Assembly (NCBI RefSeq): GCF_026278345.1
Contig: NZ_CP111085.1
Span: 3,427,501 to 3,491,500 of the forward strand
DNA length: 64,000 bases
Reading direction: 5' to 3'
DNA from: Tellurirhabdus rosea
Lineage (GTDB): Bacteria; Bacteroidota; Bacteroidia; Cytophagales; Spirosomataceae
The position numbers were made by a program, and so were the translations under genes. Positions 5,427 to 63,403 of the stretch are shown here, one piece after another. The notes beneath the pieces were generated by a model. The model did not search any database, was not told where the DNA came from, and saw only the letters and a list, made by a program, of their open reading frames with translations. Each line of letters starts with the position of its first letter. The stretch's first letter is position 1.

Positions 5427-5447
5427 ACTCCAGAGGTCTATTGTCTC

Positions 5448-5495
5448 TTGTCTTTCCTCTTTTGTCTTTCCTCTTTTGTCTTTCCTCTTTTGTCT
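5448..5495. repeat. 14-bp tandem repeat (two 7-nt words), 3.4 copies
   Basis: The unit TTGTCTTTCCTCTT occurs three times head to tail, followed by a partial copy. Each unit is two 7-nt words, TTGTCTT and TCCTCTT. The array ends exactly at the stop codon of the minus-strand TonB receptor. It has the same 7-nt periodicity as the palindromic repeats elsewhere in the window, but it is not itself palindromic. Confidence 0.8.
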
Positions 5496-8400
5496 CAGAA
5501 ACTATACCTCGCTCCCAACTGGAACTGGTACGGGTTGCCCGACGGCGCTACCACCCCCGCCGTATTGACGCGGTAGTTGAACTGCCCGGTCGTCCGGTCG
5601 AAGTTCGGAACGGCCGGCGAGGTGGCCGTAGCCGGGATGCCGAGCGCATACAGCGCCTGCGAGCTCAGCGATTTGTTGACGCCCCACGACTTGTTGAGGA
5701 AGTTGGCGAAGTTGAAGCAGTCGGCCGAAATCTCCAGGCTGTGCTTTTTGTAGAACGTAAACCGCTTGCTGGCCCGGATGTCCCACACGCCGAAGAAGCC
5801 GTTGATGCCGCCATTCCGCTCGGCCATCCGGCCGTTGTACTTCGTGATGTAGTCCTTGATGCTCTGGCTGGCGTCCGGGTTGTTCAGAATCGCCTGCAAA
5901 CCCGCTTTCACATTAGCCGGTACATTCTCACCGTTGCGGTCGAAGATGTAGGCCAGATCGTTGGTGCCCACGAAGTCGGCGTTGGTGTTGGCACCCGACA
6001 GCAGCGAGTAGCGCGTCCCGCCGATGCCCGAATACCGAACGCCGACGCTGATGCCGTAGAACGTGGGCAGCGTGCCGAAGAACACAACTTTGTGACGGAA
6101 TTGGTTGTCCGAATACGTTACCCGGCTCAGGTCGCGCGGATCGTCTTTCACCGGCAGTACCAGCGTGGCCGTGTTGGCGACGTTGCCATTAAACGAAGTA
6201 TTGTCCCGGGTATCGTTCCAGGTGTAGCTGACCGTAATTTCGCCGTCGCGGAAGTACTGGTACGTGGCGTCGGCCACCACGGCGAAGTTATTGACCTTGC
6301 CCGTGCTGTTGAGTTCCAGAACGCGGCCCAGCTTGTTGCTGACGCGGCCCTGCAGCCAGTCGCCCGCGCCGTTGGCCGGCATGGTGTTCAGGGGCACGTA
6401 AACGCCCCGGTTCTCTTCGTTTGCCAGGCGGAAGTACGGGTTGGCCACCATGTTGCGGTCCACGTAGACGTAGTTGTTGCGGCCCAGCGTCATGAAACCG
6501 GCCACACCCACCCGGAATTTGTCCGTCAGGAAGCGGTTGTACGAGAGGTTCGCCTTGTACATGATGGGCACCTTCGCGTCCGGACCGTTCAGGTTGATGG
6601 TCGGCAGCTGGAACTGGGCCAGCGTCGGGATGCTCGCGTAATTGCTGCGGTACGCCCGGAAGTCAGGCGTCGGAATGTTCGGGGAGCGAACGTCCACCGT
6701 CGCCAGGTGCTTGCCGTCGAAGGTCAGGTTGTTGATAACCATGTAGTTGTTGATGTCGGACGCAAAAATCCCGGCTCCGAATCGGATGATGTCGCGGCGC
6801 TGGTCGTTCACGTCCCAGGTCAGCTGAATCCGCGGCTGGACCACAAACGACTTGATTTTGTTGTCGGTCCGGAGCTTCAACTCGTCGTACACCAGCTGGT
6901 TCAGCGGGGCCGACGGGTAACGCGCCAGGTCGAAGCGCAGACCGGCGGTCAGGTCGAGGCCGGTGGCGAGGCGGGTGCTCATCTGTCCGTAGGCCCCGGC
7001 GTTCAGGATGCCGCCTTTCACGGTCAGGTCGTCCACCAGCGGCACTTCGCGGTAGTAGCGGTAGGGCTGGAGCCGTTCAAAATTGTCGAGGGCCGAGGTG
7101 TTGCCCGATACGTTGTAATGAAAACGCCCGTTCACTTCGCTGCCGTAGATGGAAGAGGCGTGGGTGTACATCAGGTCCAGACCAAGCGTGTACTGCACCT
7201 TGTCGGTGTTGTAATACAGGTTATCCACCAGTTGCAGCACGTTGTTGCGGAAGCTTTCCTGCGCAAAACGGTGACCGCCCATCTGGATGTTGGTCGAGCG
7301 GGTGCCCCCGGCGACGGTGGAAACTACGTTCTCGACGATGGCACGCGGAATGTTGGCATCCGGCAGCTGGTCGCCGGGGCTGCTGTCCTGGAAGGTGTAC
7401 AGGTGCTGGAGCTTCAGTTCGTTCGTGACTTTCGGATTCAGAGAGGTCCGCAGCGTTGCCAGCAGGCTGTTGTCCATGTTGTAGTCATTGCCGTACGACT
7501 CGTAGATGTTGATCGCCGTATTGTCGGCCAGACCCAGTTTGTTGCGGTCGCTGGTGTAGTTGTTCCGGATCGTCAGCAGGTTTTTCGGGTTGATCTGCCA
7601 GTCGAGGCGGAGAAAGGCCGCGTCCGAACCGCGCACTTTGTCGAAGGAACCGTACTGCGGCGAGGCCGACGTCCCGTACTGGTTACGGGCGATGGACACA
7701 AAGCGGTCGAGGGTCGTCCGGGTGGTGTTGAAACGGTTTTCGTCGGTGGCCGACTGAATGTCGGCGATGATCAGCGGGCGCGAGTCCTGCTGGTGGTCCC
7801 AGACGGCAAAAAAGTGCAGCTTGTCCTTGATCAGCGGACCGCCCAGGGCGAAGCCGTACTGGTTGGTCGAGAACTTGTTTACGCGCTTGTTGCCCCGGAT
7901 GTCGTACGGGCTCGACAGCCAGTCGGCGCGGGTGTAGTTGAAGGCACTGCCGCTCAGCTGGTTGGTTCCGGCTTTGGTCACGGCGCTCACCGTACCGCCC
8001 CCGGCCCGGCCGAAGGTGACATCGTACTGGTTCGTGACGACCTTGAATTCGCGGACCGCTTCAATCGAAATGGAGTAGGGCGCACCGCTCCGGCTGGTCG
8101 TGGCCCCCGCCGAAGTCGGGTTTTTGGCGTTCATCCCGTCGATGGTGTAGTTCGTGGATGAACCGAGTTGGCCGGAGAGGTTGCCGCCGCGGCTCAGGGG
8201 CGACAGGTCCATCAGGGAGGTGAAATTCCGTCCGTTGACCGGCAGCGTGGCAATGGAGCGGGCCGAAATGGTCGTGGCCGCGCCGAAGTTCTCGACCTTG
8301 TTTTTGAGCCCCGAGGCCACCACCTGCACCACTTCCAGCGTCTGGTTGTCTTCTTGCATGGACAGGTTGACGCGCACGGCATCACCCTGGTTGAGGGCGT

Positions 8401-9621: not shown

Positions 9622-9743
9622 TGGTTCCCGCAGATTTACACGGATTTTGTACGCAGATCTCCGCAGATTTTTTTCAATAGTAATCTGTGTAAATCTGCGT
9701 ACAAAATCCGCGCAAATCTGCGAGAAACCAATCTGTGGGAACC
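9622..9743. repeat. Long inverted repeat between converging genes (9-13 nt word spacing)
   Basis: Arms of about 30 bp (9629-9658 and 9693-9722) pair with two mismatches that can be G-U in RNA. The words ATCTGYG and GATTTACACG recur at roughly 10-13 nt steps. Outer words (TTGGTTCCCGC and the complementary GTGGGAACC) extend the symmetry. It lies between the ends of the nagB-like gene and the alpha/beta hydrolase gene, and could form a very stable hairpin in either transcript. Confidence 0.85.
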
Positions 9744-18959: not shown

Positions 18960-18965
18960 GGAACG

Positions 18966-19093
18966 ATTGAATGTTGAATTTTGAATGATTGATTGGCTTC
19001 GCCTCAATTTAAAGCTTGCGAAGCCATTCAACCATCCAGCCATTTAGCCATCCAGTTATTCAACATTCAATCATTCAAAATTCAATCATTCAC
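18966..19093. repeat. Heptad-word palindromic repeat between histidine kinase and copA
   Basis: The left arm holds consecutive 7-nt words TTGAATG, TTGAATT, TTGAATG and ATTGATT (18967-18994). The complementary words fill the right arm (about 19067-19093). Inside, GGCTTCGC (18995-19002) pairs with GCGAAGCC (19018-19025). The right edge runs into the copA stop codon. It could act as a terminator-like hairpin in both directions, but the 7-nt word structure sets it apart from ordinary terminators. Confidence 0.85.
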
Positions 19094-33992: not shown

Positions 33993-34622
33993 ATGGATTT
34001 TTACGAAGAGGATATTTACAAACTCCTGCTGGCGCTGCTGCTCGGAGGAGCTATCGGAGCGGAACGGGAGTACCGGAGTAAGTCCGCCGGTTTACGGACG
34101 ATGATCATGATCTGCGTGGGTTCGACACTGTTCACGCTGGTGTCGCACCGGCTGAGTCCCGACCACGACCGCATTGCTGCCAACATCGTCAACGGCATTG
34201 GTTTTCTGGGGGCGGGCATCATTTTCCGAGAAGACAGCCGGGTGAAAGGGCTCACTACGGCCGCAACGGTCTGGGCCGTATCGGCCATCGGCATGGCTAT
34301 TGGCGGCGGTTTTTTCGACATTGCGCTGGTTGGGTTTGGGCTCATCATCGGGTCCCTGCTGATGCTTTCCCGGCTGTCGGTTCGTATTTCGCAGTTCCGG
34401 CAAACCCGTGAATACCGCATCACGACGCCTTTCAAGAACAAGACGCTGAATTATTACGACAAGCTGTTTGAAGAGTGCGGGCTGACGGCGCAGCGCGGCC
34501 CGCAGCTACGGCTCGGCAGCCAGATCATCGGTCGCTGGAAGGTGGAGGGGCCGGAAAAGGCGCATGAAAAATGCATCAAGAAGCTGCTCAACGACCCGGA
34601 CGTGAAGGAATTCGAGTTCTAA
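33993..34622 (+). CDS. MgtC/SapB-family membrane protein
   Basis: This inner-membrane protein has 209 residues. The N-terminal half (about 8-130) holds four or five hydrophobic helices with the family motifs LLGGAIGAEREYRSKSAGLRT, then NGIGFLGAGIIFRE and GLTTAATVW. The C-terminal half is a soluble domain. MgtC proteins help cells cope with low magnesium or acid and interact with ATP synthase in Salmonella; many relatives have unknown roles. The 197-bp gap upstream is not obviously a riboswitch. Confidence 0.9.
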   Translation: MDFYEEDIYKLLLALLLGGAIGAEREYRSKSAGLRTMIMICVGSTLFTLVSHRLSPDHDRIAANIVNGIGFLGAGIIFREDSRVKGLTTAATVWAVSAIGMAIGGGFFDIALVGFGLIIGSLLMLSRLSVRISQFRQTREYRITTPFKNKTLNYYDKLFEECGLTAQRGPQLRLGSQIIGRWKVEGPEKAHEKCIKKLLNDPDVKEFEF

Positions 34623-35360: not shown

Positions 35361-35437
35361 AATGAATAATGAACAATGAAGGCTCCGCCTATTCGTCCAA
35401 TTGGATTGAGGCGGAGCCTTCATTATTCATTACTCAT
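35361..35437. repeat. Heptad-word palindrome overlapping the stop codon of the GMC oxidoreductase gene
   Basis: Words AATGAAT, AATGAAC and AATGAAG (35361-35381) lead into GGCTCCGCCT. The complementary AGGCGGAGCC and ATTCATT words follow (35409-35437). The inner 16 bp pair perfectly (35375-35390 with 35409-35424). The right arm contains the TAA stop (35423-35425) and encodes the last residues of the minus-strand oxidoreductase. Confidence 0.88.
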
Positions 35438-44145: not shown

Positions 44146-46824
44146 TTACCGGATGACGTAAACCGTGCCCTGTCGCGTAAACGACTCCTCCCGGGTGTCC
44201 TGCTGCTGCCAGATGTTCAGCCGGTAGGAGTAGGCCCCCGGTGGAACGGGCTCGTTGCGGTAGGTGCCGTCCCAGAACTTGTCGGCCACTGCCGCCGGGT
44301 CGGTGCCTTCCAGGGCGAAAATAACGCCGCCCCAGCGGTTGTAGACTTTCAGTTCGAACCGGGTCATGAACTGGCCTTTGAGGGCAAAACGGTCGTTGAT
44401 GCCGTCGCCGTTGGGCGTAAAGGCGTCGGGCAGCGAGAACCGGGCAGAACAGGTTTCGGTCACGGTCAGGGTTTCGCCCGAAAAACATTGCCCGTCCGAC
44501 ACCCGAACGCTGTAACTGCCGGGTTTGCTGACCATCAGCTGCTGCTGCGTGCCGAGCACGCGGGGAACGCCCACTTCCCGCCATTCGTATATCCAGTTGT
44601 TGCCCCGCCCGGCGTCGAGAAACACCACCGAACCGGCCGTAAAACAGGCGCTGTAGGCTTTCTGCGCCAGTTGCAGCGGCGGCCCCGAGCGAATGAACAC
44701 CTCGACCTGCGCCGCCGGACTGACGCAGGTGCCCGAAACGGTCTGGGTGACGTAGTAGCGAAGCGGCTGCGGCGGCGTACCCGAAAGGACGGGCTGGAAG
44801 CTGGTTCCGCTGCCTACCTGAGTGGTCTGGTTCGGGTCGGCGTACCATTTCAGGCTGCTCCCGCTCGCCAGCAGGGTAGGCAGCGGGTCGCCCTGGCAAA
44901 CGGTCGCGCTGGAACCCGAAACGAGCGTCGGGGCGGGCGGCGGCGGATTGAGCGTGACGGTCACCTGGTCTTTGCTTTCGCAGCCGGTAGCGGTACTGCG
45001 GGCCACGACGAGGTAGGTGCCGCTGCGCCGGGCCGTAATGTCGGCTCCCGAAACGGTTGAATTGTCGGGCTGAATCCAGGAGAAGCTGTCCCAGGCCGGG
45101 GCCGGGGCCGCCCGGAGCGTGATGCTTTCGCGGCAGGCGGTCTGGGGCGGCAGGTTGAGTTTGTAATCCGCCGGGCGGTTGAAATCGACTTCCAGACTGG
45201 TTTCGACAAAGCAGGTCGCGTCCGTAGCGGAGGTGATTTTAAGCTTGTAAACGGTCTTTCCGTTCGGGCCGGTCACGTGGAGGGTATCCTGGGTGGCTCG
45301 TGGGCCGCTGATGCCCGGTCCGGCCCATTCGACCTTGTTGGTGCCGGCGTTGGCGGCCAGAATGAAAGCGCCGCACCCTTTGGGCTGCTTGGTCGGAGCG
45401 GAAGGAAGGGAAGTCGCCGTTACGGTAAAGGGCGGGGATTTGGCCATTTGGTTGCGGCAGGGTTCGTCTTCCGTCACCTCGACCTCGTACGTTCCGGGGC
45501 CGGTGGCGGCGATGGCTGGCTGGGTAGCGCCGTTCATGGCCGTGCCGTTTTTGTACCACTGGTATTTGAAGCGGGTCGCGGCGGATTTGGTAACTTCGGC
45601 GCGCAGCTGGTCATTGCCGCAGCCGGCCCCCGGTGTGTTCCGAATGGTGGCTTCGGGTTTATTGGCGGATTGGGGTACTGGGAGCAGGTCAACGATGTTG
45701 GGCAGGCCGAGGAGGCTGGTTTTCCCACCAAGACTGAGTCCATTAAGCGTAAATCCACATCCGCTTCCGGCAACATTGGGATTGTTAATGACGCTCAGGT
45801 GGTCGCTGTTCAACCGGGCCATATATATTTTTCGGTCGGGACCTATCTGTAAGTCTCCATAGGCAATTGTAGTTGTGTTGTTAGTAGATAAGATTGTTGC
45901 GCTAAATGTCGAACTGTTCAAATCTATTTGAAAGAGATTATGAGGTGCTTCGAAGGCTGAACTGGCATATAAAAGATTGCTGTTGGGCGAGAAACATAAG
46001 CCGTAAATATTGGGTCTGCCATTAATAACAACTTTAGGATTAGAAAGCTTGCCCGTAGTATTATCAAAGTCAAAAAGCTCTACAAAACCGGGATTGGAAA
46101 CAGCTACAGCGATTTTGCGGCCATCTGGTGAGGCTTTCATTGCCCCGATATTACCTCGGTTAGGCGTTAGGGGATGTACAGAACCGACAGAAGAAACTAC
46201 AGGTGTACTACTCACACCGCTGGCGTTAACAAGAAAAGCTAGAAATTTATTAGTGCCTGCCTCATGAGCAATAACCCAGTAAGACTTACGGTCTGCATGA
46301 GGAACGGCGGTCTGTTTTTCTGTAGTGGGTGTATGGAGCTGATTGTTTTTTTCTTTGACATCGCCAAAGCCATTATTTAAGCACAGATCAATAGTAGAAT
46401 ATACTAGACCACCCTGCCCTTCGTAGTACGCTGAGAATATATAATAAATATTGCGGTCGGCTGGATTAGGAACGATTAAAGCGCTTTGAGTAGAGGAGTC
46501 ATGCCCTTTAAGGTTTGCATCATTAGGCATTCTTTTGTTTTTACCATCAGTCTGTATTTCCCGACTCCAAATTTGTGATCCATGTGTGTAGAAAAGTATG
46601 CGACCGCTTTCGTCACATATGGCCGCGCACCCTTCAGACTGGCGCATGTTTCCATTGCTGATCGGAACAGGCGCTCCACTATTGAAATCCAAACCCGCAA
46701 AGTTTCCGAAATACCAAACGTTTGCCCGTCTGCCAACCTGTGGTGTGTACTGCGCCGCGCTGAAAAAAGGCAATAGTATCCCCACAAGGACCAGCCAGGT
46801 GAGTACGTACCTTTTGCATGCCAT
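44146..46824 (-). CDS. Secreted surface protein with type B type-IX-secretion sorting domain
   Basis: This 892-residue protein is exported through the Sec system (signal peptide to SAAQ, about 25) and then probably the type IX system. An N-terminal half (about 25-430) looks like a beta-propeller: FSAYYEGQGGLVYSTIDL, then SPDGRKIAVAVSNPG and GPDRKIYMARL. It is followed by several Ig/PKD-like domains (about 440-800). The last 90 residues match the gliding-motility-associated C-terminal domain: LPDAFTPNGDGINDRFALKG, then VYNRWGGVIF, WDGTY and PPGAYSYRLNI. The ATG at 46824 starts the signal peptide; longer starts add no domain. A -7 box TACATTTG lies at 46969-46976 with a hairpin between it and the start. 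Confidence 0.9.
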   Translation of the reverse strand: MACKRYVLTWLVLVGILLPFFSAAQYTPQVGRRANVWYFGNFAGLDFNSGAPVPISNGNMRQSEGCAAICDESGRILFYTHGSQIWSREIQTDGKNKRMPNDANLKGHDSSTQSALIVPNPADRNIYYIFSAYYEGQGGLVYSTIDLCLNNGFGDVKEKNNQLHTPTTEKQTAVPHADRKSYWVIAHEAGTNKFLAFLVNASGVSSTPVVSSVGSVHPLTPNRGNIGAMKASPDGRKIAVAVSNPGFVELFDFDNTTGKLSNPKVVINGRPNIYGLCFSPNSNLLYASSAFEAPHNLFQIDLNSSTFSATILSTNNTTTIAYGDLQIGPDRKIYMARLNSDHLSVINNPNVAGSGCGFTLNGLSLGGKTSLLGLPNIVDLLPVPQSANKPEATIRNTPGAGCGNDQLRAEVTKSAATRFKYQWYKNGTAMNGATQPAIAATGPGTYEVEVTEDEPCRNQMAKSPPFTVTATSLPSAPTKQPKGCGAFILAANAGTNKVEWAGPGISGPRATQDTLHVTGPNGKTVYKLKITSATDATCFVETSLEVDFNRPADYKLNLPPQTACRESITLRAAPAPAWDSFSWIQPDNSTVSGADITARRSGTYLVVARSTATGCESKDQVTVTLNPPPPAPTLVSGSSATVCQGDPLPTLLASGSSLKWYADPNQTTQVGSGTSFQPVLSGTPPQPLRYYVTQTVSGTCVSPAAQVEVFIRSGPPLQLAQKAYSACFTAGSVVFLDAGRGNNWIYEWREVGVPRVLGTQQQLMVSKPGSYSVRVSDGQCFSGETLTVTETCSARFSLPDAFTPNGDGINDRFALKGQFMTRFELKVYNRWGGVIFALEGTDPAAVADKFWDGTYRNEPVPPGAYSYRLNIWQQQDTREESFTRQGTVYVIR

Positions 46825-47188: not shown

Positions 47189-49114
47189 TTACAGCAGAAA
47201 TTTCAGTCTAATTACTTCCTTTTCGGTAAGGTAGCGCCAGTTGCCCCGGGGCAGGTCCTTTTTGTTGAGACTGGCGTAAACCGTACGGTCCAGTTTCGTG
47301 ACCTCGTACCCGAAATGTTCAAAAATCCGGCGGACAATCCGGTTACGGCCGCTGTGGATTTCGATACCGATCACCTGCGCGTCCGGCGTGACAATGCTCA
47401 GGTCGTCCGGCTTGATAAAACCGTCTTCCAGTTCAATGCCCTCCTGAATCTGCTCGAAATGCTCCGTCGTCATCGGCTTGTCGATTTCCACCTGGTACAC
47501 TTTCCGGATATTGTTCGACGGATGCGTCAGCTTTTCGGCCAGTTCGCCGTCGTTGGTCAGCAGCAGCAGGCCGGTGGTGTTGCGGTCGAGGCGACCGACG
47601 GGGTATATCCGGTACGGCGTGGCGTCTTTCACCAGTTCCATAACGGTATGGCGCTCCTGCGGGTCGTCCGTTGTCGTGATGTAATCCTTCGGCTTGTTGA
47701 GCAGAACGTACATCATTTTCTCGGGGTTCAGCACCCGGTTGCCGTACTTGACGGTATCTTCCGGACGGACTTTGTAGCCCATTTCCGTAATCACCGTGCC
47801 GTTCACCTTGATCTCGCCGTTGGCGATCAGCACGTCGGCGTCGCGGCGGGAACAGATGCCCGAGTTGGCGATGTATCGGTTCAGGCGGATGGTGCCGTCG
47901 TTGCTGCGTTCGGCCCGTTCCAGTTCGCGCTGTTTCTTCTCCGGAACGCGTTCCTTCATGCGGTCGATGTCGTAGTTCGGCGCTTTCGGGCCGCCCGGCC
48001 GGCTGCGGTCTCCGTCTTCACGACGGGCACGCGGCTTGTCGAAGCGGGAGCCTTCATTCCGGTCGTCGCGCTGGAACGGGCGGCGTGCGCCTTCGTTGCG
48101 GTCGCCATACGGACGGCGTTCGCCCCGGCCGGTTCCTTCGCTGCGGCGCTCGCCATACGGGCGGCGTTCGCTGTCGTCGCGCCGGTTGAAACGGCGATCG
48201 TCGTCGGAACGGTCAGTGGGTTTGCGCTCCGGATCGTCGTTCCAGCGGAAGCTTTTGCGTTCGGGATCTTTCCAGGCCGGTTCGTCGCGGCGCTGGCGGT
48301 CGTTGCCGCGTGAGAAACCGGATTCGCGGCGTTCGCCGAAGGGGCGGCGTTCACCGCGGGCATTGTCGTCGCGGCGCTCACCGAACGGACGGCGCTCTCC
48401 GCGGGCATTATCATCCCGGCGCTCGCCGAACGGACGGCGGGGCTTATCGAAGCCCGGCTTGTCGAAGCCCGAACGTTCGTTGCGGTCGCCTGACTCGCGA
48501 CGTTCGCCAAACGGGCGGCCCGGCTTATCGAAGCCCGGCTTGTCGTTGCGGTCTGAATCGCGGCGTTCGTTGAAACGGCGCTCGCCGCCGAAACGGTTGC
48601 CGGCCTCATCGTCCCGGCGATTGAAGCGGTTGCCGCCTTCTTTGCGGTCGCCGCCGAAACGGGGGCGGTCACCGCGTTCTTCGAAGCGGCGTTCGCCACC
48701 AAAGCGATTTTCGCCGCTCCGGCGTTCTCCGAAACCACCCCGATCTCTGTCATTTCCGCGTGAGAAATCGGATTCACGGCGTTCGCCGAAGGGGCGGCGT
48801 TCACCGCGGGCATTGTCGTCGCGGCGCTCACCGAACGGACGGCGCTCTCCGCGGGCATTATCATCCCGGCGCTCACCGAAGGGACGGCGGGGCTTATCGA
48901 AGCCCGGCTTGTCGAAGCCCGGGCGCTCGTTGCGGTCGCCTGACTCGCGGCGGGGCCGTTCGTCCCGGTCAAAGCTGCGTTCCCGGCGTTCGGGCTGGCC
49001 CTCGCTCCGGTTGCGGTTTACATTGTCGTAAAAAGGACGTCTTTCGTCGTTTGAACGGTTGGAATCGGACCTGCCCTCGCGGCGGTCCTGGTCGTCTTTA
49101 TTGAATTTAGCCAT
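47189..49114 (-). CDS. Pseudouridine synthase (RluB/RsuA family) with a long Arg/Gly-rich extension
   Basis: The C-terminal 240 residues form an rRNA pseudouridine synthase: an S4 RNA-binding domain (about 405-465, IRLNRYIANSGICSRRDADVLI) and the catalytic domain with GRLDRNT, catalytic Asp510 and RKVYQVEID. The first 400 residues are low-complexity, built from repeats such as RRPFGERRD, DNARGERRPFG and KPGFDKP. RluB/RluF-like proteins of Bacteroidota often carry such extensions, but this one is especially long and its coding DNA shows a recent duplication. The basic repeats probably bind RNA or ribosomes. The ATG at 49114 opens the extension, and a TAACTTTG box lies at 49197-49204. Confidence 0.9.
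   Translation of the reverse strand: MAKFNKDDQDRREGRSDSNRSNDERRPFYDNVNRNRSEGQPERRERSFDRDERPRRESGDRNERPGFDKPGFDKPRRPFGERRDDNARGERRPFGERRDDNARGERRPFGERRESDFSRGNDRDRGGFGERRSGENRFGGERRFEERGDRPRFGGDRKEGGNRFNRRDDEAGNRFGGERRFNERRDSDRNDKPGFDKPGRPFGERRESGDRNERSGFDKPGFDKPRRPFGERRDDNARGERRPFGERRDDNARGERRPFGERRESGFSRGNDRQRRDEPAWKDPERKSFRWNDDPERKPTDRSDDDRRFNRRDDSERRPYGERRSEGTGRGERRPYGDRNEGARRPFQRDDRNEGSRFDKPRARREDGDRSRPGGPKAPNYDIDRMKERVPEKKQRELERAERSNDGTIRLNRYIANSGICSRRDADVLIANGEIKVNGTVITEMGYKVRPEDTVKYGNRVLNPEKMMYVLLNKPKDYITTTDDPQERHTVMELVKDATPYRIYPVGRLDRNTTGLLLLTNDGELAEKLTHPSNNIRKVYQVEIDKPMTTEHFEQIQEGIELEDGFIKPDDLSIVTPDAQVIGIEIHSGRNRIVRRIFEHFGYEVTKLDRTVYASLNKKDLPRGNWRYLTEKEVIRLKFLL
48306..48498. repeat. 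First copy of a segmental duplication inside the pseudouridine synthase gene
   Basis: This stretch of about 190 bp matches 48756-48948 almost base for base, exactly 450 bp apart, with only about ten differences by eye. It encodes the RRPFGERRDDNARGE-type repeats. The offset is a multiple of three, so the frame is preserved. Confidence 0.8.
48756..48948. repeat. Second copy of the segmental duplication
   Basis: Near-identical partner of 48306-48498. It lies in the 5' part of the gene (minus strand) and repeats the same run of codons. Recombination between the two would delete or add 150 codons in frame. Confidence 0.8.
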
Positions 49115-51324: not shown

Positions 51325-51417
51325 ATTAGAGTTTAGAGTCTATAGTTTAAAGTTCATCGTTTCTCCGCCTCCTCAGGAATTTGCGAAGCAACTCTAAACA
51401 ATAAACTATAAACTCTG
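51325..51417. repeat. Heptad-word repeat between the acetoacetyl-CoA synthetase and CtpA genes
   Basis: The left arm has five consecutive words: GTTTAGA, GTCTATA, GTTTAAA, GTTCATC and GTTTCTC (51331-51365). The right arm has complementary AACTCTA/AACTATA words (51390-51417). A CTCCGCC / GCGAAG core lies between. Pairing is imperfect. Both neighbours are on the plus strand, so the repeat lies in a 3'/5' junction of co-oriented genes. Confidence 0.75.
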
Positions 51418-53186: not shown

Positions 53187-53287
53187 TCTGAACTGTGATT
53201 GACGCTGATTTAACGGATTGATATGATTGGCTACGCCTAAATAGAAATCATATCAATCCGTTAAATCAGCGTCAATCACAGTTCAGA
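53187..53287. repeat. 42-bp perfect inverted repeat between converging genes
   Basis: The left arm 53187-53228 and right arm 53246-53287 are exact reverse complements over 42 bp. The loop is 17 nt and begins GGCTACGCC. In the left arm GATT recurs at 53197, 53207, 53216 and 53225. The left arm starts right after the ctpA stop codon, and the right arm codes for the last three residues and the stop of the minus-strand gene. Confidence 0.95.
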
Positions 53288-53921: not shown

Positions 53922-56900
53922 ATGCTAAAATCACTTTTACGAACATCACTTTTACGACTGACGGCCCTGCTGGCTCCCCTGGCTCTGGCGCCGGAGCTGT
54001 ACGGGCAAACGTCGATTTCTTCCTTCAACGTCCCGGTTACCCAGACATTCAATGCCCTGCCGGCCAGCGGCACGCTGACGTTCGGGCAGAACAGTACCAT
54101 TCCGGGTGTCTACGGCGAACGATCGGGCAACGGCTCCGTCATCACCGCCAACACCGGCTCCAGCAACGCGGGCGGGCTCTACAGCTACGGCACGGGCACC
54201 GATACCGACCGGGCGCTGGGCTCCGTGGGTTCGAGCAACGCCGCCGCGGGTAACTTCACGTACGGCGTTCGGCTGAAAAACAACACCGGCGCTACCGTTA
54301 CGTCGCTGCAGATCAGCTACGCGGGCGAGCAATGGCGCAACAGCGCCGCGGCCGCCCAGACGGTAGATTTTTCCTACCGCATCGCCGACGAGGTGACCAG
54401 CACGGTGCCGGGCAGCGGCACGGCAACACCCGGTGGCTTTACGGCCGTTGACGAACTGGACTTCGTCAGCCCCGTAACGGGCGGGTCGGCCGGGGCCATC
54501 AACGGGAACGATGCCGCCAACCGCGCAATCAAAACGTACACGCTGACGAACCTGACGCTGAATCCCGGTCAGGAAATCATGCTGCGCTGGTACGACCCTG
54601 ACCACGCGGGTGCCGACCACGGTCTGTCCATCGACGACGTGACGGTAACGGCCATCGGCAACGTGGTTTCGCCCACGCTGGCGGCCAATCCGGCGGCGCT
54701 GACGGGCTTTTCGACTAACGCAGGAACCCCCTCGACTCCGCAGTCGTACACGCTGACGGGCAGTAACCTCAGTGGTTCGGTGAGCGTAACGGCCCCGGCG
54801 GGCGTGCAGGTGAGCACCGACAACAGCAGTTACGGCACTACCCTCAGCGTGCCGACCACCGACGGCAGCGTGTCGCAGGTGGTGTGGGTCCGGCTGGCGG
54901 GAACCACGGCCGAGACAATCAGCGGCAGCATCACCAACGTCTTCAACGGGACGCTGACGGCTACCGTGACCATCAGCGGCGTCGTGAACGACCCGAACGT
55001 CATCACCCCGATTGCTGAGGCGCGCACGCGGCCCAACGGCACCTCGATTACGTCCCTGCCGGGCGGAAAAATTGCCGGGCGGGTTACGGCCAGCAACCAG
55101 TTCGGCAGCACGGCCTACATTCAGGACGGTACGGCCGGGATCGCCGTGTTCAACGCTACGTTTGCCGGACAGGTGCAGATTGGCGATTCGGTTCAGATTA
55201 CGGGCGGAACGCTGAGCGAGTTCAACCAGAGCAAGCAGGTCAGCGAGGCGGTGACGTTCACGCGCATCGGAAACGTGGGTCCGCTGGCGCCCAAAGTGGT
55301 GACGATTGCTGATCTGCCCGCTTACGAAAGCCGGCTGGTAGCGATTGAAGCCGCCGTGATTCGTCCCAACACTCCGGTCGATGCCGCCAACCCGGTGTTT
55401 GTGCTGACACCCGACGCCAATTTCCGCCTCGAAAGCAACGGTGCCGCGACGGCCCTGCGCGTGAACCGCTTCACCAACATTCCGGGCAATACGAACCCGG
55501 CGGGTCCGGCGACGCTGACGGGCATTGCGGGCCGTTTCAACGCAACGTATCAGCTGCTGCCGCGTTTTACGCAGGATATTCCGGGTTCGGTGCCTTACGT
55601 CCCCGGCGGTGGTGAGATCGACCGCGCCCGGACGCTGGACGTGGTTGCCTGGAACATCGAATGGCTGGGCAATACCGGCAACGGCCCCGGCGACGAGGAC
55701 CGGCAGTTCAGCAACGCCGTGCAGGTGCTCAACAACCTGCAGGCCGACGTGGTGGTGCTGGAAGAAATCTCGTCCGCGGCGGCCATCAACCGGCTCGTGG
55801 CGGCCCTGCCGGGCTACAGCGGCAACTGCTCGCCGTTCGTTTCGAACAACCCCGGCCACGAAGTTCCCGCCGACCCCACAACGCCGACCACCGTGCCCGA
55901 CGACGCCCAGCGCGTGTGCATTCTTTACAAAACCGAACTGGCTACAATCGTGTCGCAGCGCCCGCTGCTCGAAAAAGCCGCTCCGTTGCCCAACTATCCG
56001 GCCGGGGTGGATAACTTCTGGGCTTCAGGCCGGTATCCGTACCTGTGGTCGCTGGACGTGAAGGTGGCCAATACGACCCGCCGCGTGAACTTCATCGGCA
56101 TTCACGCCAAAGCCAATACGGCCCCGCTTCAGGGCAGCTACGACCGCCGCAAGTACGACGTGCAGGTGCTGTATGACTCGCTGCAGGCCCAGTTCCCGAA
56201 CGAGCTGCTGGTGCTGGCCGGTGACTTCAACGACGACCTCGACCGCACGGTAGCGAACGTCAGCGCGACGGAATCAACCTACAAGCCCTTCGTGGACGAT
56301 GCCGCCAGCTTCACGTCCCTGACCCGGACGCTGAGCGACAACGGCTTCCGTTCGTTCCTGGCCCAGGAAAACATGATTGACCATATTGTTGTGTCGAATG
56401 AGCTGACTCCGGCCTACGTGGCGGGTTCGGCGGGTGTCGGTACGCCGTACACGTTCATTTCGGATTATTCGAACACGACTTCCGACCACATCCCGGTCGT
56501 GGCCCGTTTCGATCTTCAGGCCCTGATTCCGCCACTGGCCGTATCGGCTTCGGCTACGCCGACGAGCGCTATTTGCCCGGATGAATCGGCGCAGCTAATC
56601 GCTTCGGTAACCAGCGGCTCCCCGGCTTATCAGTACACCTGGACCGGACCGGGTACGATCTCGAACCCGGGCAGCGCCACGGCTACCGTATCGGGTCTGC
56701 CGACCGGCACGCACACGTTCACGGTAACCGTAAAGGATGCCGATAACCAGACGAACACCGCTACCGCCACGGTAACGGTGGCCCCCGTAGCCGATGCGCC
56801 GAACTACGCCACCATTGGCGGGCAGCTCTACGCCGCTAACCAGACAAGCCTGACGGTGCCGCAATACAGCGGCGAGGTGGCCTTTGCGGCCAGCAACTGC

Positions 56901-57602
56901 GCGGGCCAGCTCTCGTGGACGGGCCCGAAGGGCCAGACGGGGACCGGAAACATCGTGGTGCCGACCTCCGAAACGGGTACGGTCGTTTATACGGGCATTT
57001 GTACGCTTGGCAACTGCGCCAGCGCCCCGACCAGCGTGACGGTAACGGTGCAGGCCCAGCCGCTGAAGCTGGTGGCTCCGCTCTATAACTGCGCGACCGG
57101 CCAGCTCACCATCCGGACGACGGGCGGCAACGGCAATCCGCTTCAATACATGATTCCGGCCGTTACGACCGGCTGGACGGACGCGGCGACGCAGGTCATC
57201 GACGCTAAGAACCGTGGAAAGGACTTGAAAATCAATGTGCGCCAGCGGGCGGCCAACGGCCAGGGCTACGATGGGGTCGGCATTGTTTTTAATACCAACG
57301 TAGTCTGCGGCAGCTCGGCCCGCCTGGCCTCGGCGGAAGCGGACGTGAAACTGTCGGTGACGGTTGTCGGGAACCCGGTGACGGGCGAATCGGTGCAGGT
57401 AGAAGTGCGCGGAGCGACCGGCCAGCCCCTACGCCTGTTGCTGACAGACGTGCAGGGCAAACCCGTCAGCGTCCAGGAGGTAGAGCGGGCGGAAGCGGTG
57501 GAACGCCGCACGCTGCCGGTAGCCAGCCAGTCCGCGGGTCTGCTGCTGCTTCGCGTCAGCACCCCGACAGAAACCCGAGTGGTGAAACTTCTGAAGCGAT
57601 AA
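53922..57602 (+). CDS. Secreted endonuclease/exonuclease/phosphatase-family protein with type IX sorting domain
   Basis: This 1226-residue exported protein has a signal peptide ending in YGQ (about 29). An N-terminal beta domain (about 30-245) is followed by a BACON/Ig-like domain (about 250-355) and an OB-fold-like domain (about 365-560, GRVTASNQFGSTAYIQDGTAGI). The EEP nuclease domain (about 570-860) holds VVAWNIEWLG, VVVLEEIS, AGDFNDDL and TSDHIPV with the catalytic His. PKD-like domains (about 870-1080) follow. The final 80 residues look like a type A type-IX-secretion sorting domain (VVGNPVTGESVQVEVRG, then TDVQGKPV). It probably degrades extracellular nucleic acids or phosphoesters. A strong terminator overlaps its stop. 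Confidence 0.88.
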   Translation: MLKSLLRTSLLRLTALLAPLALAPELYGQTSISSFNVPVTQTFNALPASGTLTFGQNSTIPGVYGERSGNGSVITANTGSSNAGGLYSYGTGTDTDRALGSVGSSNAAAGNFTYGVRLKNNTGATVTSLQISYAGEQWRNSAAAAQTVDFSYRIADEVTSTVPGSGTATPGGFTAVDELDFVSPVTGGSAGAINGNDAANRAIKTYTLTNLTLNPGQEIMLRWYDPDHAGADHGLSIDDVTVTAIGNVVSPTLAANPAALTGFSTNAGTPSTPQSYTLTGSNLSGSVSVTAPAGVQVSTDNSSYGTTLSVPTTDGSVSQVVWVRLAGTTAETISGSITNVFNGTLTATVTISGVVNDPNVITPIAEARTRPNGTSITSLPGGKIAGRVTASNQFGSTAYIQDGTAGIAVFNATFAGQVQIGDSVQITGGTLSEFNQSKQVSEAVTFTRIGNVGPLAPKVVTIADLPAYESRLVAIEAAVIRPNTPVDAANPVFVLTPDANFRLESNGAATALRVNRFTNIPGNTNPAGPATLTGIAGRFNATYQLLPRFTQDIPGSVPYVPGGGEIDRARTLDVVAWNIEWLGNTGNGPGDEDRQFSNAVQVLNNLQADVVVLEEISSAAAINRLVAALPGYSGNCSPFVSNNPGHEVPADPTTPTTVPDDAQRVCILYKTELATIVSQRPLLEKAAPLPNYPAGVDNFWASGRYPYLWSLDVKVANTTRRVNFIGIHAKANTAPLQGSYDRRKYDVQVLYDSLQAQFPNELLVLAGDFNDDLDRTVANVSATESTYKPFVDDAASFTSLTRTLSDNGFRSFLAQENMIDHIVVSNELTPAYVAGSAGVGTPYTFISDYSNTTSDHIPVVARFDLQALIPPLAVSASATPTSAICPDESAQLIASVTSGSPAYQYTWTGPGTISNPGSATATVSGLPTGTHTFTVTVKDADNQTNTATATVTVAPVADAPNYATIGGQLYAANQTSLTVPQYSGEVAFAASNCAGQLSWTGPKGQTGTGNIVVPTSETGTVVYTGICTLGNCASAPTSVTVTVQAQPLKLVAPLYNCATGQLTIRTTGGNGNPLQYMIPAVTTGWTDAATQVIDAKNRGKDLKINVRQRAANGQGYDGVGIVFNTNVVCGSSARLASAEADVKLSVTVVGNPVTGESVQVEVRGATGQPLRLLLTDVQGKPVSVQEVERAEAVERRTLPVASQSAGLLLLRVSTPTETRVVKLLKR

Positions 57603-57636
57603 AAAAAGCCGGCTGAGTCACTCAGCCGGCTTTTTT
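57602..57636. terminator. Bidirectional terminator between nuclease and ffh genes
   Basis: A perfect 16-bp stem (57602-57617 with 57621-57636) closes a 3-nt TCA loop and has an A-run and a T-run at its ends. It overlaps the last base of the nuclease stop codon. Confidence 0.93.
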
Positions 57637-57639
57637 AGG

Positions 57640-57703
57640 GTTTAAGGTTTATAGTTGCTTCGCCTCAATGGGAATAAAGGGGCGGAGCAACTATAAACCT
57701 TAA
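57640..57703. repeat. Heptad-word palindrome next to the terminator
   Basis: GTTTAAG, GTTTATA and GTTGCTT (57640-57660) lead into CGCC, and GGCGGAGCAACTATAAACC follows at 57681-57699. The 23-bp arms (57642-57664 with 57681-57703) pair except for one G-T. It follows a standard terminator, so its role is probably not simply termination. Confidence 0.88.
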
Positions 57704-57717
57704 ACTATAAACCTTTT

Positions 57718-59037
57718 TTACCGCATCATCTTATTCAACTTGCCGGATGCCTGCATCTGGTTCATTTTCTTCATCATCTTCCGCATTTCGTCGAACTGTT
57801 TCAGGAGGTTGTTGACCTGCTGGATGGTCGTGCCGCTGCCGTTGGCGATGCGTTTTTTGCGGCTGCCGTCGATAATGTCGGGCCGTTCGCGCTCTTTCGG
57901 GGTCATGGAGCCGATGATGGCTTCGATGGGCGTGAAGGAGTTGTTATCAATGTCGAGGTCTTTGATCATCTTGCCCATGCCCGGAATCATGCCGAGCAGG
58001 TCTTTGATGTTCCCCATTTTCTTGATCTGCTGCAACTGCGCCTGAAAGTCGTTGAAATCGAACTTGTTCTGGCGCATTTTGGCGCTGATGCGCTTGGCTT
58101 CGTCTTCGTCGAAAGCCTGCTGGGCGCGCTCCACGAGGGAGATTACGTCGCCCATGCCCAGAATCCGGCTGGCCATCCGCTCGGGGTGGAAGATGTCGAG
58201 GGCTTCCATTTTCTCGCCCGTCGAGATGAACTTGATGGGCTTCTGCACCACCGACCGGATCGAAAGGGCCGCTCCGCCGCGGGCGTCACCGTCGAGCTTG
58301 GTCAGCACCACCCCGTCGAAGTTCAGGCGCTCGTTGAACGTCCGGGCCGTGTTGACGGCATCCTGACCCGTCATCGAGTCCACGACGAACAAGGTTTCGG
58401 AGGGATTCAGCGCTTTTTTGAGGTTTTCCACCTCCTGCATCATCACCTCATCCACGGCCAGACGACCGGCGGTATCGACGATGACCACCTTTTTGCCGGT
58501 CTTGCGGGCATGTTCCAGGGCGTGCTGCGCAATCTCCACGGCGTTTTTGTTTTCCGGTTCGGCGTACACTTCCACACCCACCTGTTCGCCCAGCACTTTC
58601 AACTGGTCGATAGCGGCGGGGCGGTAGATGTCGCAGGCGGTCAGCAGCACGTTGCGCCCCTGCTTTTTGAGGTACGCGGCCAGCTTGCCCGAGAACGTGG
58701 TTTTCCCCGATCCCTGCAGACCGGCGATGAGGATAACGGCGGGCTCGCCTTTGACGTTGATGTTCTGGGCTTCGCCGCCCATCAGATCGGTCAGTTCTTC
58801 CTGTACGATCTTGACAAACAGCTGCCCCGGTTCCACGGAGATGAGTACTTTCCGGTCGAGGGCTTTTTCCTTGACGCGGTCAGTTACTTCCTTGGCTACC
58901 TTATAGTTGACGTCGGCGTCGGTCAGCGCCCGGCGAACTTCCTTCACCGTGGCGGCGACGTTGATTTCCGTAATACGGCCCTGCCCCTTGAGGGTCTTGA
59001 AGGCCTGGTTTAATTTATCCTGAAGACTTTCAAACAT
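57718..59037 (-). CDS. ffh: Signal recognition particle protein Ffh
   Basis: Ffh is the GTPase that, with 4.5S RNA, brings nascent membrane proteins to FtsY. The 439 residues comprise an N domain (about 1-85), a G domain with GLQGSGKTT (about 107), DTAGRL and TKLDGDARGG, and an M domain (about 300-439) with Met-rich segments ending KKMNQMQASGKLNKMM. The length is normal. The gene is divergent from cvfB, and the predicted -7 box at 59213 implies a long leader containing a heptad palindrome. Confidence 0.97.
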   Translation of the reverse strand: MFESLQDKLNQAFKTLKGQGRITEINVAATVKEVRRALTDADVNYKVAKEVTDRVKEKALDRKVLISVEPGQLFVKIVQEELTDLMGGEAQNINVKGEPAVILIAGLQGSGKTTFSGKLAAYLKKQGRNVLLTACDIYRPAAIDQLKVLGEQVGVEVYAEPENKNAVEIAQHALEHARKTGKKVVIVDTAGRLAVDEVMMQEVENLKKALNPSETLFVVDSMTGQDAVNTARTFNERLNFDGVVLTKLDGDARGGAALSIRSVVQKPIKFISTGEKMEALDIFHPERMASRILGMGDVISLVERAQQAFDEDEAKRISAKMRQNKFDFNDFQAQLQQIKKMGNIKDLLGMIPGMGKMIKDLDIDNNSFTPIEAIIGSMTPKERERPDIIDGSRKKRIANGSGTTIQQVNNLLKQFDEMRKMMKKMNQMQASGKLNKMMR

Positions 59038-59073
59038 GTGTCTGTAGTGTTACTATGCAACCGGACATTTGAC

Positions 59074-59210
59074 GGTTTGTAGTTTAGGGTTTAAAGTTTA
59101 TAGTTTATGGTTTATAGTTTGGTGTACCAACGGTCGCCTCCGCAACCTGTCCATGAGTACAGCAACCATAAACTGTAAACCCTGACCTCTAAACTCTAAA
59201 CTCTTTAAGG
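59074..59210. repeat. Heptad-word palindrome in the divergent ffh/cvfB region
   Basis: Seven consecutive 7-nt words start with GTTT (59075-59123), for example GTTTAGG, GTTTAAA, GTTTATA and GTTTATG. Complementary TAAACNN words fill 59164-59210. Arms pair imperfectly, with the best 10 bp around GTTTATGGTT. The core contains GTCGCCTCCGC. It lies between two gene starts, so it cannot be a terminator for either gene, and is probably in the ffh leader. Confidence 0.82.
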
Positions 59211-59212
59211 AG

Positions 59213-59220
59213 CAAAGTTA
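59213..59220 (-). promoter_or_regulatory. -7 promoter box for ffh
   Basis: TAACTTTG on the minus strand fits TAnnTTTG. A start near 59206 would give ffh a leader of about 170 nt that includes the heptad palindrome. No clear -33 element is visible. Confidence 0.5.
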
Positions 59221-59303: not shown

Positions 59304-60146
59304 ATGATTCAACAGGGGAAATTCAATACGCTGGTTGCGGTGCGCTTTACGAGCGTCGGGGCTTTCCTGGCCGAAAGCGAGGAAGATGAGTACGAAGACG
59401 CCATTCTGCTGCCCAACAAATACGTTCCGGACGACCTGCGGGAGGGCGACGAGATTTCGGTTTTTATTTACACCGACTCCGAAGACCGCCTCGTTGCTAC
59501 GACCCGGACGCCCAAAATCCAGCGCAATGAGTTTGCCTATCTGCAGTGTGTGGCCGTTTCGTCGGTGGGCGCGTTTCTGGACTGGGGACTCGAAAAAGAC
59601 CTCTTTGTGCCGTTCCGCGAGCAGAACAAGCGCATGGAAGTAGGTCGCCGCTACGTCGTTTTTCTGTATCTGGACCACGAAACCGACCGGCTCGTGGCCT
59701 CGGCCAAGATCAACCACTTTCTGGAAAACGAGGCGTTCGGGCTGGAAGAGGGCCAGGAGGTCGATCTGCTGGTCTACGAGCCTACCGATCTGGGTTTCAA
59801 CGCCATCGTGAACAACCGCTACCGGGGCCTGCTGTACGGGAACGAACTTTTCCGCCGCCTTTATCCCGGCGACCGGTTGCAGGGCTATATCAAACGCATC
59901 CGGGAAGACAACCGCGTGGACCTGACCCTCCAAAAACCGGGTTTTGGCAACATCGAAGCGGGTGCACAGCAGATTCTGGACAGCCTGAAGGCCCGCGGCG
60001 GTTTCCTGCCTCTGACCGACGACAGCGATCCGGAGGAAATTTACGACACATTGAAAATGAGCAAGAAAACCTTCAAACGGGCCGTCGGGACGCTCTACCG
60101 GCAGCAGCGGATTACGATTGAATCGGGCGGGATTCGCCTGGCGTGA
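59304..60146 (+). CDS. cvfB: CvfB-like S1-domain RNA-binding protein
   Basis: This is a cytosolic RNA-binding protein of 280 residues. Three S1-like OB-fold domains lie at about 5-70, 75-140 and 145-215 (GAFLDWGLEKDLFVPFREQ marks the second), followed by a C-terminal winged helix (about 225-280, SKKTFKRAVGTLYRQQRI). Proteins of this family affect virulence-factor expression in Staphylococcus; in Bacteroidota the role is unstudied as far as I know. The gene is divergent from ffh, with its own strong promoter at 59239-59269. Confidence 0.88.
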   Translation: MIQQGKFNTLVAVRFTSVGAFLAESEEDEYEDAILLPNKYVPDDLREGDEISVFIYTDSEDRLVATTRTPKIQRNEFAYLQCVAVSSVGAFLDWGLEKDLFVPFREQNKRMEVGRRYVVFLYLDHETDRLVASAKINHFLENEAFGLEEGQEVDLLVYEPTDLGFNAIVNNRYRGLLYGNELFRRLYPGDRLQGYIKRIREDNRVDLTLQKPGFGNIEAGAQQILDSLKARGGFLPLTDDSDPEEIYDTLKMSKKTFKRAVGTLYRQQRITIESGGIRLA

Positions 60147-62054: not shown

Positions 62055-63266
62055 ATGGAAAAAATTAAAGTAGCTAATCCCGTTGTTGAACTGGATGGCG
62101 ACGAAATGACCAGAATCATCTGGAAGTTCATTAAGGATAAGCTGATTCTTCCCTACATCGACGTTGACATTAAATACTACGACCTCGGCATCGAATACCG
62201 CGACGAAACCAACGACCAGGTAACGATCGACGCGGCCAACGCCATCAAGCAGTACGGTGTCGGGATCAAATGCGCCACCATCACGCCCGATGAAGCCCGC
62301 GTGAAGGAATTCAATCTGAAGCAGATGTGGAAGTCGCCCAACGGCACCATCCGGAACATTCTGGACGGTACGGTGTTCCGCGAGCCCATCGTGATGGAAA
62401 ACGTACCGCGTCTGGTGACCAACTGGTCGGCCCCGATCATCGTGGGTCGTCACGCCTTTGGTGACCAGTACCGCGCGACGGATTTCGTCGTACCGGGTGC
62501 CGGTAAGCTGACGATGAAGTTCGAAGGCGAAGACGGAACCGTGATGGATTTTGAAGTTTTCAACTTCAAGAGCGGCGGCGTAGCCATGGGCATGTACAAC
62601 GTGGACGAATCGATCCGCGGCTTTGCCAAGGCTTGTTTCAACATGGCGAAACAGAAAAACTGGCCGCTGTACCTCTCGACCAAAAACACGATCCTGAAGA
62701 AGTACGACGGTCGTTTTAAAGATATTTTCGAAGAAGTGAGCGCCGACTTCCCGGAAGTTCACTACGAACACCGCCTGATCGACGACATGGTGGCCTCGGC
62801 CCTGAAATGGGAAGGCAACTTCGTGTGGGCGTGTAAGAACTACGACGGCGACGTGCAGTCGGACACCGTCGCGCAGGGCTTCGGTTCGCTGGGCCTGATG
62901 ACGTCGGTACTGGTTACGCCGGACGGTCAGACGATGGAAGCGGAAGCTGCTCACGGTACCGTGACGCGCCACTACCGCGAGCACCAGAAAGGCAACCCGA
63001 CCTCGACCAACCCGATCGCCTCGATCTTCGCCTGGACGCGCGGTCTGGCTTTCCGGGGCAAACTGGACGGCAACCAGCCGCTGATCGACTTCTGCAACGC
63101 GCTGGAGCAGGTGTGTATCGAAACCGTCGAAAGCGGCAAGATGACCAAGGACCTGGCCGTGTCGGTATTCCCGGCGGGAACGAAACTGGTCGCCGGTGAG
63201 CACTACCTCAACACCCAGGACTTCCTGGAGGCGCTCGACCAGAATCTGAAAGCGAAGCTTTCCTAA
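62055..63266 (+). CDS. icd: NADP-dependent isocitrate dehydrogenase
   Basis: This TCA-cycle enzyme converts isocitrate to 2-oxoglutarate with NADP. The 403 residues match the type II (eukaryote-like) homodimeric form: [20 protein letters not shown] at the N terminus, [20 protein letters not shown] for substrate binding, then [24 protein letters not shown] with the metal-binding Asp residues. [21 protein letters not shown] holds the coenzyme-selecting Arg/His region. The stop codon is part of a 21-bp perfect hairpin. Confidence 0.96.
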
Positions 63267-63307
63267 TAAGGAATGCCATATCTCGCAGATATGGCATTCC
63301 TTATTAG
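63263..63307. terminator. 21-bp perfect hairpin covering the icd stop codon
   Basis: Arms 63263-63283 and 63287-63307 are exact reverse complements with a 3-nt CGC loop. The icd stop TAA (63264-63266) is in the left arm. No T-run follows, so it may stabilise the transcript or belong to the palindromic repeat class rather than being a classic terminator. Confidence 0.7.
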
Positions 63308-63403
63308 GGTAGAGGAGAGCCGCTCTCAATTTGGGGGCGGCTTTTTCCAACCTTTTTAGTCCGGTTGGTGTCTATGTACCAGAATCTTTCGTTTTTTTAG
63401 CGT

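Follow-up and report, generated by a model that had tools for sequence, protein, structure and literature searches.

The window analysed here is a stretch of 64,000 nucleotides from Tellurirhabdus rosea, whose genome is a single contig of 5,582,807 bases (5.58 Mb). The host is a relative of Larkinella: the Ffh protein encoded in the window shares 93% identity with Larkinella arboricola Ffh, and its relatives among the best 80 matches come from Larkinella, Spirosoma, Fibrisoma, Rudanella, Dyadobacter, Runella, Emticicia and others. A second genome of the host genus (G148) is 93% identical to the host in Ffh, 86% in YajC and 73% in DNA over the aligned parts. The palindrome under study lies beside ffh, and the features of relevance in the window are as follows.

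57718–59037, minus strand: ffh (SRP54 GTPase; Pfam PF00448, PF02978, PF02881).
59075–59204, minus strand: palindrome of GTTTADR words (the site under study), in the inferred ffh 5′ UTR; identified from tandem and inverted repeats and folding.
59213–59220, minus strand: TAACTTTG, putative −7 promoter element of ffh (Bacteroidota type); the palindrome lies downstream of it.
59304–60146, plus strand: CvfB-like S1/winged-helix gene, divergent from ffh (Pfam PF13509, PF17783).
57634–57711, unstranded: palindrome of GTTTADR words with tip GCTTCGCC...GGCGGAGC, between ffh and the convergent gene at 53922–57602; periodicity z 2.3.
51326–51416, unstranded: palindrome of GTTTADR/GTTYA words, arms 76% complementary.
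35362–35437, unstranded: palindrome of AATGAAN words with tip GGCTCCGCC...GGCGGAGCC, convergent genes on either side.
18961–19093, unstranded: palindrome of TTGAATN words (left arm) and 8-nt words (right arm) with tip GGCTTCGCC...GCGAAGCC; periodicity z 2.2.
9625–9726, unstranded: palindrome of 10-nt words of CGCAGATTTA type, the same design with another dictionary; lag 10 z 4.7.
53187–53287, unstranded: perfect palindrome with 42-nt arms resembling 10-nt words (CGCTGATTTAA type); lag 9 z 2.0, not significant, membership uncertain.

A preliminary description of this DNA had proposed inverted word arrays at five of these sites, and all five are present as tandem repeats (TRF) and as inverted repeats (repeat search). 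Arm complementarity is 90% at 57634–57711, 93% at 35362–35437, 76% at 51335–51416, 79% at 59075–59201 and 95% at 18961–19085 (as two overlapping pieces). When folded as RNA, each array beats 200 of 200 dinucleotide shuffles, with z between −4.7 and −12.3 (59070–59210 on the minus strand, −5.7; 57634, −12.3; 35358, −9.4; 51325, −4.7; 18966, −8.4). At a lag of 7 nt, 62 positions in the window have at least 20 of 28 matches, part of them contributed by a non-palindromic array at 5433–5496; lag 14 gives 55, and lags 3–6 and 8–13 give 0–1. Fixed 7-nt arms had been described at 18966–19093, which is correct for the left arm but not for the right, where the words are 8 nt long. A GCTNCGC/GCGNAGC tip can be clearly recognized at 18996, 35382 and 57657 but is degenerate at 51362 and unclear at 59074–59210. 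The palindromes at 9625–9726 and 53187–53287 are further sites that the preliminary description did not contain.

Other repeats also occur in the window. An intergenic 14-nt tandem array at 5436–5495 (TCTTTTGTCTTTCC, 3.7 copies) has no inverted partner among the repeats listed. A perfect hairpin with 22-nt arms and a 3-nt loop, not built from words, is located at 63262–63308. Two 45-nt tandem arrays (48324–48471 and 48777–48922), each followed by a 15-nt array, lie inside a called minus-strand gene at 47189–49114.

The Bacteroidota −7 promoter motif is TAnnTTTG. The palindrome at 59075–59204 is located between a box that resembles this motif (59213–59220) and the start of ffh, and would therefore be part of the ffh leader. 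It had been placed between two gene starts, and ffh and the CvfB-like gene are indeed divergent, but it lies downstream of the promoter-like box of ffh, in the inferred 5′ UTR. The box, AAAAATCACTAACTTTG, is kept in G148, where the rest of the leader is unrelated to that of the host, and is nearly kept in Larkinella. The ffh leader of seven Larkinella species out of eight contains a palindrome whose 10-nt words resemble CTCTGATTAC or CTCCGCTTAA (assigned by eye; five reach a hairpin score of 18), and in the eighth, L. soli, it contains no palindrome. Across an alignment of the seven species 90.9% of cells are paired, and 13 of 40 pairs have changed on both sides, giving 27 such cells compared with 11.8 ± 2.8 after shuffling. 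A palindrome of 7-nt words is also present in the ffh leader of a Cytophagales MAG (L059). As the words differ among species, it is the position and architecture that recur at this leader. At the site behind ffh (57640), no word palindrome is found in the eight Larkinella species or in G148, and Rudanella (L042) has a palindrome of 8-nt words behind ffh. The prospect, raised beforehand, that sister strains have unrelated and non-periodic sequence at such sites is thus contradicted at 59074, with its periodic palindromes in seven Larkinella, and agrees with what is seen at 57640.

The wider occurrence of these structures was assessed in 464 kb of host DNA, comprising the window and 20 evenly spaced 20-kb stretches, with 371 genes and 87% coding DNA according to our own uncurated codon-usage calls. 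An ungapped hairpin scan (score of at least 18) was combined with palindrome-preserving shuffles for periodicity (z of at least 3). Periodic arms, of 4/8, 7, 10 or 14 nt, are found in 34 of 61 long hairpins, which by extrapolation corresponds to ∼400 per host genome. The best-lag z is at least 3 in 36 of the 61; by lag, this value is reached in 11 hairpins at 4 nt, 18 at 7, 12 at 8, four at 10, seven at 12, three at 13 and 15 at 14, and in none of the 61 at lags 5, 6, 9 or 11. The 34 periodic palindromes are used for the statistics below. Only the 35361 array among the five described initially belongs to them; the arrays at 51325 and 59074 fall under the hairpin score of 18, and those at 18966 and 57640 under the periodicity z of 3. 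A different survey, of another set of 20 stretches, found periodic palindromes in four of the nine that had been picked for earlier matches and in one of the remaining 11.

Periodicity was also examined over the intergenic DNA of the host. A 7-nt periodic window occurs in 37 of 283 intergenic pieces of at least 40 bp compared with one in a single block shuffle, which excludes the possibility that 7-nt periodicity is no higher than in shuffled sequence, and hairpins number 30 per 200 kb compared with 0, again in a single block shuffle. Autocorrelation over all intergenic DNA is raised at lags 4 (z 5.5), 7 (6.8), 8 (5.8), 14 (3.4) and 21 (4.7); there is no excess at lag 10 (z −3.1), which means that the host has few 10-nt words. 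The 13-mer AGTTTATAGTTTA has 16+16 host matches and triple GTTTADR words have 86+85, with 0 for the reversed control in each case and 0 GTTTADR triples in G148. Any match to these triples is found in 14 of 148 genomes of the order, counting the host; a genome from another family (G061) has 112+98. Triples of AGTTAWG type (36+21 in the host) are found in eight of 118 genomes across the phylum, again counting the host. The host dictionaries include GTTTADR, TTGAATN, AATGAAN, AGTTADG, AAGTCGT and GTTGAAN, with TGAN/TGAATGAC, TGAGTGAT and CGCAGATTTT as further examples. The words are thus drawn from genome-wide dictionaries and are not locus-specific, as had been thought. Nor is a 7-nt period the sole design, since 4/8, 9 and 10 nt also occur, but the idea of one design at many junctions extends well beyond the original five loci.

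Several other ideas about these sequences were tried and abandoned. The host arm periods (4/8, 7, 10, 12, 13 and 14, never 5, 6, 9 or 11) suggested a rule by which arms would supply stop codons in all frames, which is refuted as a rule by the existence of 9-nt dictionaries in L. rosea, L. knui and L. humicola. Carriage by a virus was rejected (one 22-mer had no exact match in viral_contigs), as was carriage by a plasmid (57630–57720 had no match in plasmids). A search of Rfam 15 with 12 sources (102,039 bases) gave 0 matches above the gathering score.

All 34 periodic palindromes are intergenic and 0 are in coding DNA, with 25 at tandem, seven at convergent and two at divergent junctions; the 263 background junctions of at least 60 bp comprise 164 tandem, 40 convergent and 59 divergent. 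Every one of the 39 ends that face a stop codon lies within −23 to +26 nt of it (median 4), and the 29 ends that face a start codon lie 1–349 nt from it (median 34), with a TAnnTTTG box between palindrome and start in three of the 29. Non-periodic hairpins are likewise close to stop codons (median 8 nt).

Many hairpins of different dictionaries have in common a tip of the form GCTYCGC – ∼14 nt – GCGRAGC. The core proposed in the preliminary description, GGCTNCGCC, is found in some dictionaries and lineages but is not general. Thirty such loops, selected from at least 705 candidate cores for at least nine of 14 matching outer arm bases (675 were dropped), are more alike than loops after shuffling (mean pairwise score 4.65 compared with 4.29 ± 0.05; 100 shuffles, either orientation allowed). 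The sequence GCGNAGC forms very stable DNA mini-hairpins. A role for it as a single-strand DNA mini-hairpin signal was considered and set aside as not general, the tips of the humicola group being of GGCTGRCGCA/TGCGTCAGCC type.

Within the arms, conserved and free word positions can be distinguished. Mismatch between arms across 27 GTTTADR loci is 21% at D and 25% at R compared with 3–8% in GTTTA, and across 59 seven-nt loci it is 2.9% at invariant phases vs 14.2% at variable ones, with some bias since a single arm served to assign the phases. The match between words at the same depth of the two arms is 0.648, compared with 0.573 ± 0.026 when permuted (26 loci), and the best of 2000 arm permutations (0.667) is above the observed value. 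Adjacent words are identical in 12 of 164 cases, with ∼25 expected. Dictionaries and tips vary, and no fixed consensus sequence was found among the copies. Most arms are A+T-rich, and G-rich units capable of forming quadruplexes were not encountered: GTTTADR, AGTTAWG and TTGAATG contain no G-tracts beyond the GGG of some copies (by eye).

Turnover of the palindromes can be followed in three Larkinella species, L. sp. C7, L. punicea and L. humicola, which are 93.0–93.6% identical pairwise over 100 kb and contain 14, 14 and 22 periodic palindromes per 300 kb, respectively, a few of these being other elements. Many of the same junctions are occupied in more than one of the three. Of the 31 junctions followed, a number could not be mapped in one or two of the species, and at least six contain other palindromes (136907, 144616, 163607, 192099, 252934 and 267096). 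Loops are inverted at seven of 20 orientable junctions, the 20 including 136907 and 267096. The inversion is clear at five (96622, 167419 in the ffh leader, 174592, 235627 and 294659) and less clear at 195553 and 16766; at 96622 in C7, 13 of 13 loop bases fit an inversion. Changes in the arms are often mirrored: this applies to 44 of 85 left-arm differences (0.52, compared with 0.09 expected and 0.07–0.21 in shifted controls), in rows that are non-independent (28 pairs from fewer junctions), come from hairpins found by their own pairing and are unpolarised in direction. Watson–Crick pairing is kept in 42 of the 44. Gaps of at least 4 nt are multiples of 7 in 26 of 75 cases, with ∼11 expected, and not in 49, counted over 39 non-independent pairs at 13 junctions that include some with swapped words. 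Examples of whole-word indels are 14 nt at 34402, 28 at 235780, 21+7+28 at 239304 and 21 at 269750. The excess of whole-word indels, together with loops that are flipped between sister species, bears out the earlier proposal of slippage plus inversion.

At some junctions the words themselves have been exchanged. C7 has words at 235627 that are unlike those of L. humicola and L. punicea between similar flanks; at 251234 the words of L. humicola and L. punicea differ and C7 has words common to each; and at 294659 the words of L. humicola differ (by eye). At 239304 L. punicea carries another palindromic element. The two stop codons at junction 298844 are separated by 97 nt in C7, 12 nt in L. humicola and 9 nt in L. 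punicea; in the outgroup L. terrae the distance is 230 nt and the words are similar, which makes losses in L. humicola and L. punicea and a single gain in C7 equally possible. L. punicea retains just an outer fragment at 46593, which looks like loss by deletion. A further palindromic element, containing CCCCTAAATCCCCTAAAGG, is present or absent at single junctions in L. punicea and L. humicola (252934 and 267096) in a MITE-like manner.

Occupancy has also been compared in further species. When 100 kb was compared in four species, with 55 of 84 L. humicola junctions placed in all four, 10 of 13 occupied junctions were occupied in at least two species, some of the blanks being below threshold; this becomes nine of 11 when two junctions with another palindromic element are excluded. 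The spacer upstream of yajC contains a GTTTADR palindrome in the host and is 17 nt long in G148. Downstream of yajC, a heptad palindrome is present in seven Larkinella (six reach a score of 14, and L. arboricola, with 13-nt arms, was recognized by eye) and absent at this position in L. soli. In G148, the 200 kb that surround yajC and ffh, a non-random sample, contain a single periodic hairpin, and a sample of 40 kb contains 0. By coordinates, the junction of this lone palindrome is also occupied in the host, with other words.

The nearest published kin found are REPs and the heptamers of Xanthomonas and Nostoc. The latter have, in common with the present arrays, 7-nt units with conserved and free positions that are dispersed between genes. 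Their words (GGGANTN and GGGGAYT) are G-rich and have been studied as quadruplexes; in Xanthomonas they also form inverted pairs and mostly keep their gene context, and over-representation of heptamers in bacteria has been noted with no established function, according to the available part of that account (PMC4692102). In the host and its relatives the dictionaries are AT-rich and numerous, with word lengths of 7, 8, 9 and 10 nt; most of the arrays pair as hairpins and several have a GC tip. The coexistence of many such dictionaries and word lengths, the common GC tip and, at orthologous junctions, changed dictionaries, inverted loops and mirrored changes in the arms go beyond what the available part of the account describes. 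The likeness to REP/REPIN elements is in being small, high-copy palindromes mainly at tandem and convergent junctions, near the 3′ end of the upstream gene, that at times provide stop codons (PMC3733652, PMC3116915, excerpts). Unlike these, the copies have no fixed sequence, arms are word arrays with a span of ∼60–250 bp, and no RAYT gene flanked by word palindromes was found among four examined.

Other comparisons are more distant. BrickBuilt of Porphyromonas gingivalis is also an intergenic element of the Bacteroidota with tandem units inside an inverted-repeat element; as described in the excerpt available, it has 19 copies in one strain, each a single array of 23-nt units with leader and tail, as opposed to two inverted word arms (PMC4596501). 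The TAACTGA repeats of Beggiatoaceae, Cyanobacteria and some Bacteroidetes are dispersed and mostly intergenic heptamer arrays, but in the accessible portion of the source they are directly repeated, most of those in the main genome lie shortly before start codons, and one of 170 is inverted (PMC4679880). With regard to process, template switching in inverted repeats is reported to homogenize arms and invert spacers, and the present palindromes resemble repeats edited in this way in arm homogenization, spacer inversion and multi-base compensatory change (PMC8604942 and PMC8794818, in part). The small inversions associated with palindromes in the trnH-psbA spacer of chloroplasts are comparable (PMC2903610, in part). 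Going by the same partial sources, template-switch editing is a mutation process that involves no dispersed family, and the spacer inversions in yeast are of 2–5 bp. Among the top matches of the open-licence literature, the present combination is not described.

Taken together, the sequence comparisons point to REP-like, dispersed stem-loops with word-built arms that are rewritten locally by slippage and template switching, a reading to which we assign a probability of about 0.58. The stem-loops are non-coding, are mostly located just behind stop codons and would be transcribed as long hairpins at mRNA 3′ ends, with the ffh copy as a 5′-UTR hairpin; the transcribed hairpin may be tolerated or be useful as an mRNA-end structure. 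Slippage in whole words would alter the length of the array at each junction, and template switching between the arms during replication would copy one arm onto the other and flip the loop. Mirrored change and spacer inversion are reported effects of template switching, and whole-word indels are those of slippage, so that the local evolution would be explained. The signature of template switching, arm homogenization and spacer inversion between relatives, is found here, and we infer template switching as the agent; mirrored change would also be expected from selection for pairing, which may act as well. Because the arms often carry different words at variable positions (mismatch 21–25%; 0.648 vs 0.573 as above), homogenization is incomplete, a point against this reading. 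Since the dictionaries are genome-wide, movement of elements or words between loci would also be needed. Slippage and template switching alone leave unexplained the dictionaries common to dozens of loci, the dictionary changes and the avoidance of identical neighbours, which calls in addition for some copying between loci, or for selection acting on the words. The scarcity of identical neighbours counts against slippage alone, as plain slippage would not give it; the dictionary changes, which follow obviously from neither process, and the 49 gaps that are not multiples of 7 count against the main reading. Nor did the comparisons reveal a common element end, a target duplication or a linked transposase; by eye, the two short-spacer sites show no clear duplication.

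Different models have to be weighed against this one. That the arrays are chance products or low-complexity, AT-rich spacers, as the predominance of A+T-rich arms might suggest, has practically no probability, because shuffling (one shuffle each) removes both the hairpins and the 7-nt windows and the reversed patterns have 0 matches in the host. Strong hairpins directly past stop codons would be expected if the palindromes were nothing but intrinsic transcription terminators. At least six T in the 10 nt past the stem are found at four of 39 periodic ends, though this test is weak because non-periodic hairpins, some of which are surely terminators, also reach just six of 39; in addition, the ffh copy sits in the inferred 5′ UTR and the yajC copy lies between genes that are 17 nt apart in G148, probably in one operon. 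A terminator-only function is therefore very unlikely, in agreement with the original view that termination alone cannot explain the site at 59074–59210. It is possible, though unlikely, that the words are recognition units of a DNA- or RNA-binding protein, with the dictionary following the protein and the hairpins kept by selection. This model accommodates the conserved and free word positions kept in both arms, the avoidance of identity by neighbouring words, the co-occupancy of junctions among the four species, and the compensatory changes in the ffh leader and between sisters; against it, several unrelated dictionaries occur in one genome, dictionaries differ at one junction between 93%-identical species, and the closest sister, G148, is almost free of word palindromes.

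Classical REP or MITE elements, mobilized by a transposase of the Y1 (RAYT) type or of another kind and with the periodic arms as decoration, would account for dispersal, for the common GC-rich tip with its similar loops, for the REP-like placement (PMC3733652, in part) and for the short spacers at yajC in G148 and at the C7 298844 junction in L. humicola and L. punicea. Word-poor G148 lacks genes for Y1_Tnp, of which there are two in G000 and one to seven in each of eight Larkinella genomes. This presence and absence makes Y1/RAYT a tempting mover, but it is unsupported by the flanks of four Y1 genes (L131, L132, L171 and L176), which have other palindromes, one of them weak, and no word palindrome. 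The same junctions are moreover re-used with different words, and outer ends common to the copies were not noticed; we regard transposition of this kind as unlikely. It is quite unlikely, in our assessment, that a trans-acting system, either an enzyme or templated copying, writes or rewrites the junction palindromes with a lineage-specific dictionary, the site being inherited and its text replaced, in which case loops may also flip to and fro within populations and act as a switch. Telomerase-like extension of both ends of a break, which fits common dictionaries with unlike arms, is disfavoured because arm changes are mirrored.

Other palindromes were seen in the course of these comparisons. 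GC-rich palindromes with a TCGC-TACG-CGA-like core occur at L131:2144–2304 and L113:7265–7486; those of L131 adjoin a Y1 transposase gene with in-frame stops and resemble a classical RAYT–REP pair. Imperfect tandem repeats, GTTCAAACGGATTCATCGGTG-like, are located behind a host Y1 transposase gene (L132, ∼1930–2180).

By extrapolation, this lineage offers hundreds of replicate loci at which ∼93%-identical species can be compared to count events of slippage, arm copying and loop inversion. Two questions become testable in this way: how the hairpins originate and their pairing is maintained, and how a dictionary spreads through a genome. As the sites abut gene ends and the ffh leader, their rewriting may alter mRNA stability or expression.
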